Source of the DNA: Sulfurimonadaceae bacterium
Lineage (GTDB): Bacteria > Campylobacterota > Campylobacteria > Campylobacterales > Sulfurimonadaceae
DNA: 41,169 nucleotides
Direction: 5' to 3'
Assembly (NCBI GenBank): GCA_028683835.1
Contig: JAQUHB010000024.1
Span: 1 to 41,169, forward strand
The notes under the pieces are model-generated. The model was not told the origin of the DNA and did no database searches. It saw only the letters and a list, made by a program, of their open reading frames with translations. The stretch's first letter is position 1, and each line of letters starts with the position of its first letter. This document shows, one piece after another, positions 19,429 through 41,169 of the stretch. The position numbers and the translations under genes were made by a program.

Positions 19429-21915
19429 TTACACCCCTTGTATTGTAGCTGTACTAAAGCGGTAACCGCTAAAGAGAGCCTGCGAATTTAGATTTGAATC
19501 AAAAGTTGGAAGAGTCGCTATCTCCCCCTCGATTTTGTTGTCACTGATGATTTTTGTCGTAAACTCACCGTTTTGTGTCTTCACTCTTACAGTATCACCC
19601 TCATTGAAATTACTTGTTTTGAGGTAAGATTCACTCATATAAAGCCCGCTTTTTTCCGTGAGGTTCGCTGACTTATTAGTAAATTCACTAAACTGACGAA
19701 CCGGATTTGCTAAATATATGATACTTCCATCTAACTTATCATCTGTTATCGCTTCAACTGACTCATCAGCTGAAGGCTCATTAGCGATTATATCTAGTAG
19801 ATATCCTCTCACTTCTGTTCCGTCATTTTCATAACGGTTTGGAAGATTGTCAAAAAGCTCGGCTTTAAACCCTTTATATGTAGGCAATTTGAGAGTGTAA
19901 TCTACTGTCAATTTAGTGCTGATGCCAAGAGCATTAGCAATGTCGTTAAGCTCATATCCTTTGTATCCAACCGCTGCATTTGTAGGATTTACACGCTTGT
20001 CGATGCTTGTAAGTGTTCCCTCTTGCTGATTGAGCGCCGGCATATCAAGATCACCATTTCCAAGTGCGCTTAGAGTAAAGTCACCTTTTGTATTGTAACC
20101 CACAGTGTAAGTTCCTCTTGCATCATCAAGATCACAGATTAGTGCGACACCAAGAGTATTTGTAAGACTTGGAATCATTACCAATTTAAATGCACTGTAT
20201 TTTTCTAAAAGTGCCACAAGACGTGCTAAATTTTTAGCATTCGGATGTGTGTAAAGATCAGGCCCGACGATAAGAGAAAAACTCTCTTTTTTCGCCAAGA
20301 ACTTCTCTAAACTCTCTGTAAAGTTTTTAGGCGCATCTACGATTTCCAAAAGACGATTTTCATCCACTTGGACATCTTTAGAGATTTTTTTAGGAACCAT
20401 AGAAGTTTTTTCCTCTTCTACTTCTTCCTCTTCTCCTGTTTCTTCATTCACTTTTTTCACTTTTACAATTTCAGTGACTTTTTCTTTGATAGTCTCTTCG
20501 ACCGTCACAGTTTTTTCTGAATGAAAAGATGCAATATACTCTACCACAGACGCAGGAAGTTTAGATTTGTCAGCAAAAAGGTCAAGTAAAAGATATAAAA
20601 CTGCTTCTTCAGCAAGCGGAGCATGAGCTATACTCATTACGTTTTTGCCTATCCCATCAATAATAGGATCTTTTAGTGGATGGAAATAAAGACCTGCACC
20701 TTTATTCATGCTGATAGCATTATTAAATGCATATCTTGCATTTGGATTGTCACTTTTGAGCGCTGTTCCTAAAGAAACTATAAAATCAGCCGCGTGAGTC
20801 TGTGTTAAGTCGCTTCCATACAAAGATGTGCCACTTATCTCACTATAATTTTTCAAAAATGTTTGAAATGCTTTTGCTTCCTCGTTTACAAGTTTGTATC
20901 CGAACTTCTCTTTTAATGATTGAAGAATCATTGCCTCTTCATTTGTGATCGTTGAAGTAAATGCAATAGTATCTGCTTTTTTGAATGCTTCTATTGCATT
21001 TGCAAAAGCTGCCTCATCTTTAGCTTCCACCTTATTATCATAGTCGTACCCATAACGTCCGGCACCACAAAGTGAAACATAGTTCCATTCGTTCATAACA
21101 CGATAGATCTTATCATCAGAATTTTCAATACTTGTATGTTTGACATCATAAGTGATCTGGCATCCAGCACTACAGTGACCACATGTTGCAGGAACTTGAT
21201 GAAGTTCCCAAGCATTTGATTTATATATAAAATGTGTATCTACAAGTGCACCGACGGGACAAACAGCTGCACACTCGCCGCATGACGTACAGTCAAGCAT
21301 CTCTTCGCCGCTTGTGAGTCCAATAAGAGATTTATTGAGCTTATTCCACATTGCATACGCATCTTTTGGCATCCCTTCTTTAAACTCATTATCTATAGTA
21401 TCAGCATTACGAGAAACTGTTTTTAAAGCATTATCGCCAATCATATCCTTACAGACAGTCACACATCTCTCACAAACGATACAAAGACCAGGGTTATAAT
21501 GAATATGTCCCCAATCTTTATCTTTTCTGTCCACATCTTTAATAGCGTAGCTTTGAGAATCTACTCCCATCTCTAAGGTATAATTTTGAAGCTCACATTC
21601 TCCTGATTGATCACAAACTCCACATTCTAACGGATGGTTTACATCATAAACTTCCATAATGGCACGGCGCTCTGTTTCAATAGTTTCTGTAGAAGTCGTG
21701 ACATTCATACCGTCTTTTGCTTTGGCATTACACGCATATACCTGTTTGCCATCAGCCTCAACAAGACAAAGACGGCAAGCTAAAGTTGGGCTACAACGTG
21801 TCAGATAGCAGATAGCAGGGATAAAGATATCATTTGCACGAGCGGCATTTAATATAAATTCCCCCTCCTCTGTTTGTATTTCGCGGCCATCTATATTTAT
21901 AGTAATATTACTCAT
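19429..21915 (-). CDS. nuoG: NuoG-type complex I subunit, second of two tandem copies
   Basis: Large iron-sulfur subunit of the peripheral arm. The 828-residue product has the N-terminal 2Fe-2S domain (Cys36, 47, 50, 62), the His-Cys3 motif HPLECGVCDQSGEC (about 96-109), CIVCERCVTVC, CTSCGECAAVCPVGA, and the extra N7-type motif CGHCSAGC with a later SLCGAGRYG. The C-terminal part is a degenerate molybdopterin-oxidoreductase domain. It differs from the first copy by an insert between the 4Fe-4S motifs (about 166-208, with EFKEGMPKDAYAMWNKLNK) and by a very charged insert at about 470-520 (ETGEEEEVEEEK and neighbours). It overlaps the other nuoG by eight bases and precedes nuoH by two. This copy is nearer in length to single NuoG proteins of relatives. 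Confidence 0.93.
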   Translation of the reverse strand: MSNITINIDGREIQTEEGEFILNAARANDIFIPAICYLTRCSPTLACRLCLVEADGKQVYACNAKAKDGMNVTTSTETIETERRAIMEVYDVNHPLECGVCDQSGECELQNYTLEMGVDSQSYAIKDVDRKDKDWGHIHYNPGLCIVCERCVTVCKDMIGDNALKTVSRNADTIDNEFKEGMPKDAYAMWNKLNKSLIGLTSGEEMLDCTSCGECAAVCPVGALVDTHFIYKSNAWELHQVPATCGHCSAGCQITYDVKHTSIENSDDKIYRVMNEWNYVSLCGAGRYGYDYDNKVEAKDEAAFANAIEAFKKADTIAFTSTITNEEAMILQSLKEKFGYKLVNEEAKAFQTFLKNYSEISGTSLYGSDLTQTHAADFIVSLGTALKSDNPNARYAFNNAISMNKGAGLYFHPLKDPIIDGIGKNVMSIAHAPLAEEAVLYLLLDLFADKSKLPASVVEYIASFHSEKTVTVEETIKEKVTEIVKVKKVNEETGEEEEVEEEKTSMVPKKISKDVQVDENRLLEIVDAPKNFTESLEKFLAKKESFSLIVGPDLYTHPNAKNLARLVALLEKYSAFKLVMIPSLTNTLGVALICDLDDARGTYTVGYNTKGDFTLSALGNGDLDMPALNQQEGTLTSIDKRVNPTNAAVGYKGYELNDIANALGISTKLTVDYTLKLPTYKGFKAELFDNLPNRYENDGTEVRGYLLDIIANEPSADESVEAITDDKLDGSIIYLANPVRQFSEFTNKSANLTEKSGLYMSESYLKTSNFNEGDTVRVKTQNGEFTTKIISDNKIEGEIATLPTFDSNLNSQALFSGYRFSTATIQGV

Positions 21916-24163
21916 GGTTCACTCTCATAATTTTAGATTTTTGAAATCTGTAACTGTTGATACTTTCGTCTAAATCAAAAGTAGGATTTAATGCGATTGT
22001 ACCCTTTAAAGATTTATCCTGCTTGAAAGTACGAAGAAAAGTTTTGTCTGCAAAACTTATTTCAACTTTATCTCCATCACTCACACGCGCTGCTGCAGCA
22101 AATTGAGCAGAACCTCGAAGTGCTGTGTCACGTTCAAGCTGTTTTGTGATATTTGTATAAGCATTAAACTGTAATACAGGATTGACGTTATAGATAATCG
22201 TTCCATTAAACTCTGGAAGTGAATCCAGCTCATCCAACGATCCATCCATTGCCACTTCTACAACGTCGAGCAAATAGCCTCTGATATCTTCGCCTAAAGG
22301 CGTAAGGAAGTTTTCAAGGGCATCAAAGTCAACTGTTTGAAATCCACTTGTAAGTGGTAACTCTTTCGTGAAATCTATTGTATTTTGTTTGCTTATGCCA
22401 AAAACTTTTGCAAGATCAAGAAGTTCATATCCGTCAAACGCTAAGGCGGAGTTTGTAGGAACAACACGATTGTCAATGCTTACAAATGTTCCCTCTTGCT
22501 GATTAAGTGCGGGAGCTGCCAGGTCTGCATTTCCAACACTTGAAATAACAAAACTTCCTTTATCGTTGTAAGCAACAACATTTTCAAGAGAGTTGTCATC
22601 CTTATCAAGCTTACATGTAAGGCTTACCCCGAGCGTATTGACATCGCGTGGCACAACAAGGACAGAAATATCCGTGTATTTTTCTATCACAGCTGCAAGT
22701 TTTGCAATATTTTTAGCCTCTTTGTGTGCAATAAGATCATTTCCAAGAACTAAAACTCTATTTTTTGTTCTTGTCAGTGATTTCATCATTAAAGTGAATT
22801 CTTCTTCGCCAATATTAGTTTCAGCACTTAAGTATCCATCATCTAAATCATCAAAAAATGCTTTTTCATCATCACTAAGTTCTACATTTTCAAGTAAATA
22901 TTTAGCAAAAAGAGCCATCACACCCTCTTCTGTTCCCACTTCATATTTTAAAAATTGTGTAATAGTATTTTGCATTAAAGCATCTTCTATCGGATGCGCA
23001 TAAATAATTTTTGCGCCATTATGTTTTGCAGCCGTTGTGATTGCATATCTTACAGCTGGATTATCCGTTGTTATCATGGAACCGATAACGATAATGCCAT
23101 CAGAAAGTTTAATAGCTTCAAGTGTTGCACTATAATGCTTTTTACCGCTGATACTTGCATATGCATCCATAAATGAACCAAATTTTCTTGCATCTTCGTT
23201 ATAAAGTTTGATCCCAAGTTTTTCTTTTAATCTTTGTAAAATCAGAACCTCTTCATTTGTGATCATCGAGCTAAAACGAATCGCTTTGGCATTTTTTAGA
23301 GCTTCAACTGCATTTGCAAATGCAACTTCATCTTTTGAAGCTTTATTATCAAAATCAAATCCAAATCTTCCTGCACCACAAAGTGAAGTAAACTCAAAAT
23401 TATTTTTTACTCTGTAGATAGTATCATCTTTTGACGAGATCCCCGTATGTCTTGTTTCATATTCAAGTGAACAACCGCCTGAACAATGTGCACAAGTAGC
23501 AGGAATACGTGTTAATTCCCAAGCATTTGCACTGTATTTGAAATCACTGCTCACAAGTGCGCCGACTGGACAAACAGCAATACATTCACCACAAAATGTA
23601 CAATCAAGAGTATCTGAATTTTTGGGGATAACTTTTGATTTATATCCGCCAAACTGAAGGTCTATGGCATCATCACCTATCACTTCATTACATACATGAA
23701 CACATTTTTCACATAAAATACAAAGAGCTGGATCATAGTTTATAAGTCCCCAGTTTTCTATTTGACGATGCTGATCACGTGCAGAAAAGTTTTGCTGTGC
23801 GACATCAAATTCTAAAGTCTTGTTTTGAAGATCACATTCTCCAGATTTATCACAAACACCGCATTCTAAAGGATGATTTACATCATAAAGTTTCATGATG
23901 TTTGTACGTTCTTGCTCTAAAACATCGCTATTGGTTGTTATTACAATACCGTTTGTAGGAGGAGTATTACATGAAAGAACAAGTCCTTCAACCCCGGCAG
24001 CTTCTACGACACACATGCGACATGATGCACACGGTGTTGTTTTAGATATATAACACATGGTAGGGATATAAATCCCCTCGCGGCGCGCTACTGTCAAAAT
24101 ACTCTCGCCTTTTTTAGCACTAACCGCTTTGCCATCAATCGTAAAGTTAATCAAACTATTCAT
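21908..24163 (-). CDS. nuoG: NuoG-type complex I subunit, first of two tandem copies
   Basis: A 751-residue NuoG paralogue. The 2Fe-2S ligands are Cys37, 48, 51 and 65; HPLECGVCDKSGEC supplies the His-Cys3 cluster; CILCEKCVHVC and CTFCGECIAVCPVGA follow; an N7-type set CAHCSGGC and SLCGAGRFG is also complete. The molybdopterin-like C-terminal domain is present and ends close to the family end. It lacks the charged insert of the downstream copy. It follows the GltD-like gene by nine bases and overlaps the next nuoG by eight. The two copies are clearly related, especially across the cluster domains and the second half (LNQQEGTF-SID-RVVPTN against LNQQEGTLTSIDKRVNPTN), but well diverged, so this is an old duplication. 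Confidence 0.93.
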   Translation of the reverse strand: MNSLINFTIDGKAVSAKKGESILTVARREGIYIPTMCYISKTTPCASCRMCVVEAAGVEGLVLSCNTPPTNGIVITTNSDVLEQERTNIMKLYDVNHPLECGVCDKSGECDLQNKTLEFDVAQQNFSARDQHRQIENWGLINYDPALCILCEKCVHVCNEVIGDDAIDLQFGGYKSKVIPKNSDTLDCTFCGECIAVCPVGALVSSDFKYSANAWELTRIPATCAHCSGGCSLEYETRHTGISSKDDTIYRVKNNFEFTSLCGAGRFGFDFDNKASKDEVAFANAVEALKNAKAIRFSSMITNEEVLILQRLKEKLGIKLYNEDARKFGSFMDAYASISGKKHYSATLEAIKLSDGIIVIGSMITTDNPAVRYAITTAAKHNGAKIIYAHPIEDALMQNTITQFLKYEVGTEEGVMALFAKYLLENVELSDDEKAFFDDLDDGYLSAETNIGEEEFTLMMKSLTRTKNRVLVLGNDLIAHKEAKNIAKLAAVIEKYTDISVLVVPRDVNTLGVSLTCKLDKDDNSLENVVAYNDKGSFVISSVGNADLAAPALNQQEGTFVSIDNRVVPTNSALAFDGYELLDLAKVFGISKQNTIDFTKELPLTSGFQTVDFDALENFLTPLGEDIRGYLLDVVEVAMDGSLDELDSLPEFNGTIIYNVNPVLQFNAYTNITKQLERDTALRGSAQFAAAARVSDGDKVEISFADKTFLRTFKQDKSLKGTIALNPTFDLDESINSYRFQKSKIMRVNHE

Positions 24164-36751: not shown

Positions 36752-39700
36752 ATGAAACTTACGAATATTTTTTCAAGGCTTTTGGCTGTTTTTGGACTTT
36801 TATTATTATTGAGTGTTTCTGGATGGGGAGCGTGCAGTGGTACTTCCGTTGCTACGTGGAATACATCGACAACCACATACTCTGATAGTGATTCGAGCTT
36901 TACAAACAGTTATTACACAATCACTGTCACGCAAGCTGGAATATTGAATTTAAGCGTTTATAATGCTAGTAGCGGTAGTCATACAAGGAATATCACTGCT
37001 TCTTTATATCCTAATGGTACATGTACTTCAACTGCCACTTGGAGTTCTGGTTCAATCTCAGAACTCCAAACTGCTTATTCTGGCGACATCTCTGTCTCTG
37101 TAGGTACCTATACGTTACAACTTTCAAGAAGCAGCAGTTATTCGTCAGGCTACAGTTGGAGTGGCACTTTCGCTCCAAATGCTCCTCCTGTTATTACAAA
37201 TACAAGCCGAAATGTCGATGAAAACTCACCGGCAGGAACTCTTGTTGGCATACCGATCACTGCGACGAACTCTCCTACAGGTTTTGCCATCACAGGTGGA
37301 ACTGGTCAATCTTTGTTTAATATAGATTCATCTGGTCAAATCACAGTTAAAACTGGAGTGGTGCTTGACTATGAAACAACTGCTTCTTACACTTTAACTG
37401 TTACAGCTACTAATAGCGCAGGAAGTGGTTCTGCCAATATCACGATTAATCTGAATAATATTACCGGTCCTACGATTATATCTGGACAAACATTTAGCAT
37501 AGTAGGCGGATCAGCGAATGGAACTTATATTGGAACACTAGCTGTAACAATTCCTACGCCACTGCCTTCTACAAATACAACAACAAGCTATACATCTAGC
37601 GATTCAGCTTTTACTATCAGCCATACAGGCGCAATCACAGTAGCAGACAGCGGTGGATTAACAGTTGGTACACATACAGTAACGGTAGTCGCTACCAATG
37701 CCGAGGGAACTGACACTAAAACTATTACAATAAATGTTACTGCACCTTCTGCCGACCTTGCCCTGACAAATACAGACTCCCCAGATCCTGTTATAACAAA
37801 TTCATCTCTCACCTACACTTTGGGTGTGACAAATAATGGACCTCAGACAGCCACATCTTTAACTTTAACAGATACGCTTCCTGCGGGTGTAACCTATCTA
37901 AACGCAAGTGGAACAGGCTGGTCTTGTTCTCAATCTTCCGGAACTGTTACATGTACAAATTCCAGTCTTGCTAGTGGTGCAAGTTCAAATGTCACAATAA
38001 CTCTTACTTCTCCTTCGACAGCAGGAACTATTACGAATACTGCAACTGTGACATCTGCTGTCACTGATCCGACACCTGCTAATAATACAAACATTACACA
38101 AAGTACGACGGTAAATACTCCTTCTGCTGATCTAGCATTAACAAAGACTGCACCTGCTAATGCTCTAACCAATAATACAATCCAATATACCATTACCGTT
38201 ACAAACAATGGGCCTGCAGATACCGATAATCTCACAGTGATTGACGATATCAATGCAAGTGAAACGTATCAAAATGCATATGGGACTGATTGGATATGTA
38301 CATATACATCAGCAACACGTAGATTGTCTTGTCTACATCCGACAACTTTAGCGAATGGAGATTCTACCAGCATCACTCTTATAGTTGCTGCACCAAGTAC
38401 AGCAAGCACTGTTAAAAACTATGCCAGCGTAACAAGTTTAACAACAGATCCTAATATGGCAAATAATACTAATTTTGCTTCAACGACAGTAACAGCAACA
38501 TCGATTAATTCAAATAACCCTCGTTCTTTCACCCTTCAAAAACAATACAACATCTATGGAGATATGACAATTATAGGGAACTCTGTAATGGTAAAGAAAA
38601 ATGGGACAAGTTGGACATGCCCGTCAATGACAGAGCGAAATAATGTCATCGCAGCAACCTACGCCGATATCGATAATAACGCTTCAACTTTTGACTCTTC
38701 ATCAGCAGAATTAAAACTTCCCGTAACGGCTACAAACAAAGAGATTGTTTGGGCAGGGCTTTATTGGCAAGGATATCTTGTAAATGATTCTGCAGATAAA
38801 GCAAAAGCAAATAGCGTCTTATTAAAGACTCCTATTTCTTCATCTTATGTCACTATGACCTCTGATATAACAAAATTTAATTGGCTATACGTTACAGGGA
38901 GTAGTTTCGATCGATTTTACTATCAAGGCGTAGCTGATATAACGGCTATTGTTAAAGCTGCCGGAGAAGGAAATTATACAGTTGCTAATCTTTACAGCAG
39001 TACGCTAGATGGTTTTTCTAGTAGTGACCTTAATACTGTGGGGGGAGCTTTTGGGGCATGGTCTATTGTTGTTGTTTATAAAGATAGTAGTACTACAATC
39101 AAAAATATCTCTGTGTATGACGGCTATGTTAGTATAGGCACAGTTGGAGCAACTTCTGATGGTCCCGTATATAATGATTATACTCTCACTTTATCAGGAT
39201 TTTTAACACCAACTTTGGGAACTATAAATTCAAATTTTCTTGTTTTTGCAGGAGAAGGGGATTTAGGTGGTACGGGTGATTATACTAAACTTTCAAGTGG
39301 ATCTAATTTAACAAATTTAGTATCTCTCTACAATGCAAAAAATCCAGCTAATGATATCTATAATTCATCAATCACTGACGATGGGGTTCCTGTAACTACG
39401 AGAAGTCCTAATTGTGAAAATACCATTGGCGCCGATATCGATAAATTTGATGTCGGTTCTACCGCATCTACAACAACACAAGGACAGATTATTCAGAACT
39501 CTCAAACAAGTACAAATGTAAATCTTACTACTAGTGGAGATGGCTACTTCCCTGGTGTTTTTGCATTTTCCACTCAACTATATGTTCCAGATGTATGCTA
39601 TCTCGAAGATGTCTCTTACAACGGTGCAGCGATATCAAGTACAAATATACCCTCAACGGGCGATAATGTAACATATGAAGTATCTGTCACAAATAAAAAT

Positions 39701-41169
39701 AGTGAAGCGGCGAAAGGTGTTTTTATTGAAAAAATATTTGATAAACCAAATGAAATAACTTATGTTCCCAATTCAATGTCCATAGCTCCCATACCGGGAA
39801 CCACCTACACGCCTAAAAGTGATGCTATCGGCGATGATACGGCTGAATATAATTCTGATACAGATACGGCAAAATTTTTGTTGGGGGACACTGCACAATG
39901 GTATCAAGGTGGCACTCTCTCTCAAAATGCTATTACAAAATTCAAATACGATGCCAAGCTCGGCGATCAAAATGCGAGTGAAAACACATACCTAGTTAGT
40001 TATCGTAATGATCTATTACATATTACATTTTCTGGTATTCCAATAAGAAAATGTCAGGACTTTAACAACAGTTTTTCTGTCTATACACCAGTTATAGGTG
40101 CATATAATACAGTTCATTCTGGTGCAGTTAATATCAATACTGACTCAGACCCTTTAGATCCTTCTGATGTAAAAAATGCTCTTTACACACAAGTGGTAAA
40201 TCAATCATTTTCTGTCGATTTACTTTCTCTTGACACAAATAACATCACGCCGGTAAATTCTTCAAAAGATGTAAACCTTTCCATTGTCGAACTTCCTTCT
40301 GATGGAAATTGTGACAATGCAACTTTACTACAAACTGTTACACCAACCATTCCCATTAATGGCCTCAAGCTAAAAACCGTTACCATCACGCCGATAAGAG
40401 CATCAAAAAATGCTGTCTTTAAAATGGCTACGGATACTGTAAGCTTATGTTCGCGAGATCGATTTGCTATTCGTCCTGCTAGTTTTTCTATGGATACAAA
40501 TGTCACGAGTCCTCTCATAGGAAATAGGCAATATATGCTAACGGCAACGGCAAATCAATCCGGATCGACGAGTCCATCTGTTGGCTATAACCAGACAATT
40601 GATAATACCGTCAATAAAAATACAACGACGCAGCTGGTTCTTCCTACAGGATGCGGATTGCCAAATCCACTACAAAATATCAGCACGGCTTTACCTTTTG
40701 GTGATGGTACTGTAAGTGCAGTCATTGTATATCCAAATGTAGGTGATGTCAATCTTACTATCACTGACTCAGATTGGACTTTCGTGGATTCCAATAATTC
40801 TAAAGGAGACTGTATCGCCAACAGTACTTCAAATATTCCAGTAAGCGGTAAAGTCGGTTGTTTGATACAGAGTAGTAAAATATTTAGCTTTGTTCCTCAA
40901 ACATTTAACTCATTACTAACACTTGCAAATAGTTCTACTGGGTTTACTTATATATCAACTGACCAAAATATGTCTGCACCTTTAACACTCAATACGACTG
41001 CAGTACTAGATGGTGGAGGAACTGCTACAAACTATACAAAAGACTGTTTTGCAAAAGATATTAACACTACACTTTCTTTGATGAATAATCAAAATTTATC
41101 ATGGGGAACGTCCCAAGCTAGAGTTAAATTTTTCGACGACTTAAATACTACGTCAAGATTTCTTACACA
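36752..41169 (+). CDS. Giant secreted surface protein, partial (cadherin-like, DUF11, MshQ/DUF6701-like)
   Basis: The frame is open from an ATG with an excellent AGGAGGG site to the window edge: at least 1472 residues, C-terminus missing. A Sec signal peptide (SRLLAVFGLLLLLSVSGWGA) is followed by a Ser/Thr-rich N-terminal domain (about 30-138), a cadherin-like domain (about 140-235; VDENSPAGTLVG, FNIDSSGQITV, LDYETTASYTLTVTATN), a second weaker Ig/cadherin-like domain (238-330), two DUF11 repeats (331-453 and 456-581; SADLALT, VTNNGP, ADLALTKTAPAN), a long unassigned beta-rich region (588 to about 1230; GGAFGAWSIVVVYKD) and a stretch resembling MshQ/DUF6701 proteins (from about 1236; RFAIRPASFSM). 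Composition is rich in Thr, Ser and Asn and poor in Lys, as in adhesins. Likely exported and surface-attached; function inferred only. Confidence 0.88.
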   Translation, partial: MKLTNIFSRLLAVFGLLLLLSVSGWGACSGTSVATWNTSTTTYSDSDSSFTNSYYTITVTQAGILNLSVYNASSGSHTRNITASLYPNGTCTSTATWSSGSISELQTAYSGDISVSVGTYTLQLSRSSSYSSGYSWSGTFAPNAPPVITNTSRNVDENSPAGTLVGIPITATNSPTGFAITGGTGQSLFNIDSSGQITVKTGVVLDYETTASYTLTVTATNSAGSGSANITINLNNITGPTIISGQTFSIVGGSANGTYIGTLAVTIPTPLPSTNTTTSYTSSDSAFTISHTGAITVADSGGLTVGTHTVTVVATNAEGTDTKTITINVTAPSADLALTNTDSPDPVITNSSLTYTLGVTNNGPQTATSLTLTDTLPAGVTYLNASGTGWSCSQSSGTVTCTNSSLASGASSNVTITLTSPSTAGTITNTATVTSAVTDPTPANNTNITQSTTVNTPSADLALTKTAPANALTNNTIQYTITVTNNGPADTDNLTVIDDINASETYQNAYGTDWICTYTSATRRLSCLHPTTLANGDSTSITLIVAAPSTASTVKNYASVTSLTTDPNMANNTNFASTTVTATSINSNNPRSFTLQKQYNIYGDMTIIGNSVMVKKNGTSWTCPSMTERNNVIAATYADIDNNASTFDSSSAELKLPVTATNKEIVWAGLYWQGYLVNDSADKAKANSVLLKTPISSSYVTMTSDITKFNWLYVTGSSFDRFYYQGVADITAIVKAAGEGNYTVANLYSSTLDGFSSSDLNTVGGAFGAWSIVVVYKDSSTTIKNISVYDGYVSIGTVGATSDGPVYNDYTLTLSGFLTPTLGTINSNFLVFAGEGDLGGTGDYTKLSSGSNLTNLVSLYNAKNPANDIYNSSITDDGVPVTTRSPNCENTIGADIDKFDVGSTASTTTQGQIIQNSQTSTNVNLTTSGDGYFPGVFAFSTQLYVPDVCYLEDVSYNGAAISSTNIPSTGDNVTYEVSVTNKNSEAAKGVFIEKIFDKPNEITYVPNSMSIAPIPGTTYTPKSDAIGDDTAEYNSDTDTAKFLLGDTAQWYQGGTLSQNAITKFKYDAKLGDQNASENTYLVSYRNDLLHITFSGIPIRKCQDFNNSFSVYTPVIGAYNTVHSGAVNINTDSDPLDPSDVKNALYTQVVNQSFSVDLLSLDTNNITPVNSSKDVNLSIVELPSDGNCDNATLLQTVTPTIPINGLKLKTVTITPIRASKNAVFKMATDTVSLCSRDRFAIRPASFSMDTNVTSPLIGNRQYMLTATANQSGSTSPSVGYNQTIDNTVNKNTTTQLVLPTGCGLPNPLQNISTALPFGDGTVSAVIVYPNVGDVNLTITDSDWTFVDSNNSKGDCIANSTSNIPVSGKVGCLIQSSKIFSFVPQTFNSLLTLANSSTGFTYISTDQNMSAPLTLNTTAVLDGGGTATNYTKDCFAKDINTTLSLMNNQNLSWGTSQARVKFFDDLNTTSRFLT

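Follow-up and report, generated by a model that had tools for sequence, protein, structure and literature searches.

The giant gene and its continuation beyond the window

The window (the whole stretch of DNA analysed, 41,169 nucleotides) is the entire contig C40 of a 2.51-Mb draft genome (G000), and its plus strand ends in a giant mshQ-like gene. The frame occupies positions 36752..41167 and stays open for 1472 codons up to the window edge, in agreement with the first-pass annotation, which had described an uninterrupted frame of 4418 bases. The last 127 bases of C40 recur without mismatch, in reverse orientation, at the end of contig C83 and on none of the other contigs; a shared end of 127 bp would be a typical length for an assembly-graph overlap. 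When the two contigs were joined, the frame continued in phase for 238 codons on the minus strand of C83 (L003:16261-17102) and reached a stop, giving a protein of 1710 amino acids. Thus the frame could be extended to its stop as had been proposed, and 238 further residues, instead of an early stop or frameshift, lie just beyond the edge. The join is supported because the gene is uninterrupted in a same-genus orthologue (L023/L079), an open frame of 1713 amino acids with 69% identity over the window part. An open frame of 4.4 kb with domain matches and many homologues is far beyond chance, and the giant gene is real and complete.

Architecture of the giant protein

The protein begins with a Sec-like signal peptide (residues 1-27; 36752..36832, plus strand, as are all segments of the gene given below), read from the sequence by eye. 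A cysteine follows at residue 28; since it is not kept in relatives, a lipoprotein is unlikely. One Cadherin repeat (residues 155-233; 37214..37450) passes Pfam (PF00028, 1.2e-8, 35.7 bits against a cut-off of 28.8). DUF11 matches the whole protein at 8.5e-38 with three stretches counted by Pfam. The first repeat covers residues 335-447 (37754..38092), which are the best stretch for PF01345 and also match NCBIfam TIGR01451, and the second covers approximately residues 457-583 (38120..38500), based on the Pfam stretch count with limits set by eye. The signal peptide and the two DUF11 repeats named in the first-pass annotation were therefore borne out, with a third DUF11 stretch below threshold, while its plural "cadherin-like domains" came down to a single repeat.

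The central region had been said to match nothing over some 650 residues. This holds for residues 588-940 (38513..39571), a domain delimited by regional conservation (about 50 of 77 relatives) and by a structure model, which gave no Pfam match and, in a fold search of the model, no clear PDB match. The predicted structure of residues 587-1228 (m84a90e7ec636; pLDDT 78.3, pTM 0.70) is confident enough to call this domain all-beta. The description does not hold for residues 944-1100 (39581..40051), which are predicted to form an Ig-like, DUF11-related domain. Here VIA-align returned Z of about 10 to many Ig-like domains (for the best match, rmsd 3.1 and 131 aligned), and the only Pfam signal across residues 587-1228 is a sub-threshold DUF11 match (7.9e-4). 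DUF3344 appeared in one of 22 central domains (3.3e-5), was absent when ten were scanned alone, and was dropped.

The C-terminal region spans residues 1226-1710, of which residues 1226-1472 lie in the window (40427..41167). A model of this region from the orthologue L079 (483 aa, pLDDT 72) consists of chained beta sandwiches, with the last 30 residues disordered (pLDDT below 50). Fold searches with the C-terminus matched nothing more specific than generic beta-sandwich chains (Z no higher than 8.0), from which no function could be read, and PDB sequence searches with the central and C-terminal regions returned nothing useful. All structure predictions were of single chains. The modelling that had been suggested for both regions yielded beta folds, with no clear PDB match for residues 588-940 and generic ones for the C-terminus.

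No direct match to DUF6701 above the Pfam cut-off was found in the giant protein or in its genome. However, 7 of 36 aligned homologous C-termini match DUF6701 (best 7.6e-23). One of these positive relatives (L029, genome G051) scores 81.4 bits over residues 137-559 of 577, and the giant's own C-terminus matches this relative with E=1.3e-22. This suggests that the C-terminus is a divergent DUF6701 region of the MshQ type, linked only transitively through relatives; the proposed MshQ/DUF6701-like part stands as homology through relatives and not as a direct domain match. A search of plasmid records found no relative of the DUF6701-positive C-terminus.

A conserved operon with prepilin genes

The first-pass annotation had suggested looking for pilus genes just downstream, and four prepilin-like genes were found directly behind the giant gene. 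On C83, the start of the next gene overlaps the giant's stop by four bases (GTGA). The four same-strand genes encode proteins of 229 (pil1), 315 (pil2), 146 (pil3) and 158 (pil4) amino acids, all with prepilin-like N-termini, and are followed by a gene for a ribosome hibernation factor. Pfam N_methyl is above its cut-off for pil3 (23.3 bits) and sub-threshold for pil1 and pil2; TIGR02532 is above its cut-off for pil2 and pil3 and below it for pil1. The assignment of pil4 as a prepilin comes from its motif and homology only.

The arrangement was compared in the related genomes and at 40 named loci from Sulfurimonas, other Campylobacterales and Sulfurospirillum, found with a four-sequence alignment. 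The window protein is matched in 38 of 60 related genomes and the C-terminal profile in 51 of 60. The order giant-pil1-pil2-pil4 recurs at nearly every fetched locus with enough downstream DNA, the few exceptions with other genes behind the giant being L028, L029, L042 and the first copy in L041. Giant and pil1 mostly overlap by 7 bases in relatives, and the giant itself ranges from about 670 to 4078 amino acids. Among the loci sampled, pil3 is confined to the window's own genus. Judging by gene order and homology, the giant heads a conserved operon of putative minor pilins in Campylobacterota.

This conservation bears on whether the giant is instead a free-standing cell-surface or S-layer-like adhesin whose adjoining pilin genes are coincidental. 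DUF11 and cadherin modules are common in surface proteins, and S-layer proteins and giant adhesins turn up among the generic structural hits. However, both order and overlap with the pilin genes are conserved in dozens of genomes, the C-terminus is related to DUF6701, and Pfam scans of the protein found no other anchoring or export domain. We regard such a surface protein as highly improbable, and the S-layer-like reading in the first-pass annotation received no support. The same annotation had suggested looking for type I or IX secretion genes, and none are linked to the giant. A type I pair does lie on the minus strand of C83 (L003:178-3236), with an HlyD-type adaptor (TIGR01843, 321.8 bits) and a PrtD-type ABC exporter (TIGR01842, 731.2 bits), but it sits at the far contig end, about 13 kb from the giant gene. 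A type I secreted (RTX) adhesin was rejected based on this distance, the Sec-like signal and the lack of any RTX domain in the Pfam scans, and type IX secretion was dropped together with type I. On present evidence, the giant is neither an S-layer protein nor a type I or type IX product.

Constant base and variable outer part

Regional conservation was measured against 77 relatives having the C-terminus. Residues 1312-1596 of the giant are covered in all 77, residues 628-969 in about 50 and residues 1-570 in about 12. Calx-beta replaces cadherin and DUF11 in two of six other relatives scanned. Across the aligned sequences, the C-terminus thus appears constant, the middle partly kept and the N-terminus mostly exchanged. 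Tandem giants occur in L037, L044 and L049. Their extra giants, and that of L041, lie upstream of the operon copy and have the same tail, with no pilin gene directly behind; these are possible alternative tips.

The machine encoded elsewhere in the genome

A cluster on contig C52 encodes a secretin (262.9 bits against an MshL cut-off of 250.2), a PilO-like protein, an AAA ATPase, a TPR protein, a GspE/PilB-type (MshE-type) ATPase and a GspF/PilC-type (MshG-type) platform protein. The secretin falls far below the cut-off of the GspD model, and MshL fits best. PilT is encoded on C87 and a prepilin peptidase on C77. Two further genes were noted in this genome, a second, more distant secretin (L122, G000:C61:3884-4345) and a third T2SSE-type ATPase (L121, G000:C9:89328-89921).

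Putative MSH systems have already been detected in Epsilonproteobacteria from gene content, almost always in a single locus (Denise et al., PMC6668835). In this draft genome, the giant and its pilins lie on C83/C40 and the machine on C52, so that a shared locus is not seen. In two other genomes (L054 in G058, L059 in G010), a single cluster on one strand brings together a paralogous giant, pilins, I-J-K-like genes, a secretin, an AAA ATPase and other genes of the machine. Presence of the family tracks the MshL secretin weakly; co-occurrence is uninformative here because nearly all relatives carry such a secretin.

These genes could also be read as a secretion system in which the pilins form a pseudopilus that exports the giant as type II-like cargo, the giant being no part of a pilus. 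The pilins do weakly match the type II pseudopilin models GspG, GspI and GspK, the ATPase and platform protein of C52 score near GspE and GspF, and the giant has a signal peptide. On the other hand, the best fit and above-threshold score of the secretin are with MshL, and a PilT retraction ATPase is present. Further, tight translational coupling of one cargo gene to pilins throughout an order would be unusual, and the conserved parts of the giant are its C-terminus and tail, as expected of a docking end. We therefore consider export as cargo improbable.

The C-terminal tail

Most giant copies end in [KR]xxW. The codons of this tail double as a purine-rich ribosome-binding site for the first pilin gene; where the two genes overlap by 7 bases, the last codon, TGG, also lends its TG to the start codon of the pilin. 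A purely protein-level reading of the tail was dropped because of this overlap with the ribosome-binding site.

Alternatively, the tail might do no more than provide the pilin gene with its ribosome-binding site and start codon, with no function as a peptide. Among copies with a close downstream gene, AGG makes up 53 of 113 arginine codons in the last seven codons, compared with 180 of 2120 elsewhere (p ~1e-24), and an AGGA/GGAG/GAGG core is present in the tail of 49 of 63 copies against a background of 11%. The excess of AGG among the tail arginines indicates selection at the nucleotide level. However, the final W is also kept in each of the ten copies that lack a close downstream gene, nine of which show the full [KR]xxW, and no pilin start directly follows any of the eight that were inspected. 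In addition, L027 keeps RR with the codons CGA CGT and has no purine core. Several of the ten are paralogues and could be recent copies. We nevertheless think it rather unlikely that the tail serves translation only. Selection at the peptide level is probable because copies without a close downstream gene retain the W, which counts as support and not proof since the sequences are related and non-independent; the tail probably also acts as a peptide. In place of a known sorting signal, which the first-pass annotation had suggested looking for, the giant has a conserved peptide at its C-terminus.

A more specific possibility, which we offer tentatively, is that the [NS][KR]RxxW tail is a docking peptide for a minor pilin at the tip, such that any DUF6701-like base with this tail could be mounted. 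Orphan and tandem copies would then be interchangeable tips, and the pilin gene would draw both its ribosome-binding site and its start from the nucleotides that encode the tail, coupling the supply of tip and pilin.

The giants of L043, L047, L054 and L059 lack the W tail, ending in R, and their pilins are more divergent. They may belong to a second, paralogous pilus system; G010 has both kinds (L037 and L059).

Proposed role and comparison with known systems

Based on these observations, we consider it likely that the giant is an MshQ-like protein acting at the tip (or in the priming) of a type IV pilus of the MSHA type, where it would dock on minor pilins with its variable adhesive modules facing outward. 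The giant would be exported to the periplasm by Sec, and its constant DUF6701-like C-terminus with the flexible [KR]xxW tail would dock on the minor pilins encoded directly behind it. Together, giant and minor pilins would make up a complex that initiates the pilus and is extruded through the MshL secretin to become the pilus tip. In this position the cadherin, DUF11 and beta modules of the variable N-terminal part would point outward, where they might attach to surfaces, particles or other cells. The docking, the place at the tip and the adhesion are predictions drawn from the operon, from the pattern of conservation and, by analogy, from the PilY1 and minor pilins of Myxococcus. For the tip position, the analogy is with PilY1 because MshQ itself is listed as an MSHA pilus component of unknown function (PMC9815625). 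The first-pass annotation had left the choice between a new surface-attachment protein and a pilus-associated adhesin. The prepilin genes, their conserved arrangement and the MSHA-type machine favor the pilus side.

Several observations count against a tip role in an MSHA-type pilus. The giant has no direct DUF6701 match; it and its pilins are separated from the machine, whereas MSH systems usually occupy one locus (PMC6668835); and both one-cluster genomes (L054, L059) carry the paralogues that end in R. Moreover, at least three relatives (L028, L029, L042) have a copy lacking a pilin gene behind it, and there is only a weak association between presence of the family and the MshL secretin.

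The giant could also resemble PilY1 as a primer or surface sensor that serves mainly to initiate pilus assembly, with outer modules that are non-adhesive. In Myxococcus, assembly is primed by PilY1 together with minor pilins (PMC7541494), and the giant's constant C-terminus is encoded with pilins. However, exchange of the N-terminal modules and the tandem copies (L037, L044, L049) fit a choice of ligands better, and we view priming as the main task as unlikely. Priming and adhesive roles are compatible and not mutually exclusive.

Encoded in a conserved operon, the giant is MshQ-like but divergent, a variant of the known MshQ type. Like MshQ of Vibrio, Shewanella and Aeromonas, it has a C-terminus tied to DUF6701 (here through relatives), is encoded with minor pilins, and occurs in a genome with an MSHA-type machine. 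It is also large and variable in length, as reported for Shewanella MshQ (PMC7439477). In contrast to mshQ, which ends the msh operon running from mshH to mshQ (PMC7439477), the giant gene precedes its pilins and lies apart from the machine. The giant also differs in giving no DUF6701 match with its own sequence and in having N-terminal cadherin, DUF11 and all-beta modules. A further candidate difference is the [KR]xxW tail that runs into the first pilin gene, a feature seen here in the giant and its relatives.

PilY1/PilC1 of type IVa pili has a variable N-terminal and a conserved C-terminal part, a likeness to the giant. Unlike PilY1/PilC1, the giant has a C-terminus of DUF6701-like beta sandwiches, and the PilY1 domain PF05567 had no match in the giant or in its genome, the genome search being one run without a positive control. 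PilY1/PilC1 is a large exported protein that works with minor pilins at the tip (PMC7541494), as the giant may do by analogy. Surface adhesins with DUF11 and cadherin repeats share the same kind of repeats with the giant's N-terminal half; in the giant, however, these modules are exchangeable and the constant part is the pilin-linked C-terminus. With its wide set of homologues, constant base, exchangeable outer modules and short conserved tail, this family makes the role of MshQ testable, and it suggests how Sulfurimonas-like Campylobacterota may attach to surfaces or to each other.

Elsewhere in the window, a respiratory complex I operon on the minus strand (19429-24163) contains tandem NuoG-like subunits (19429-21915 and 21908-24163), both with iron-sulfur motifs as read from sequence only.
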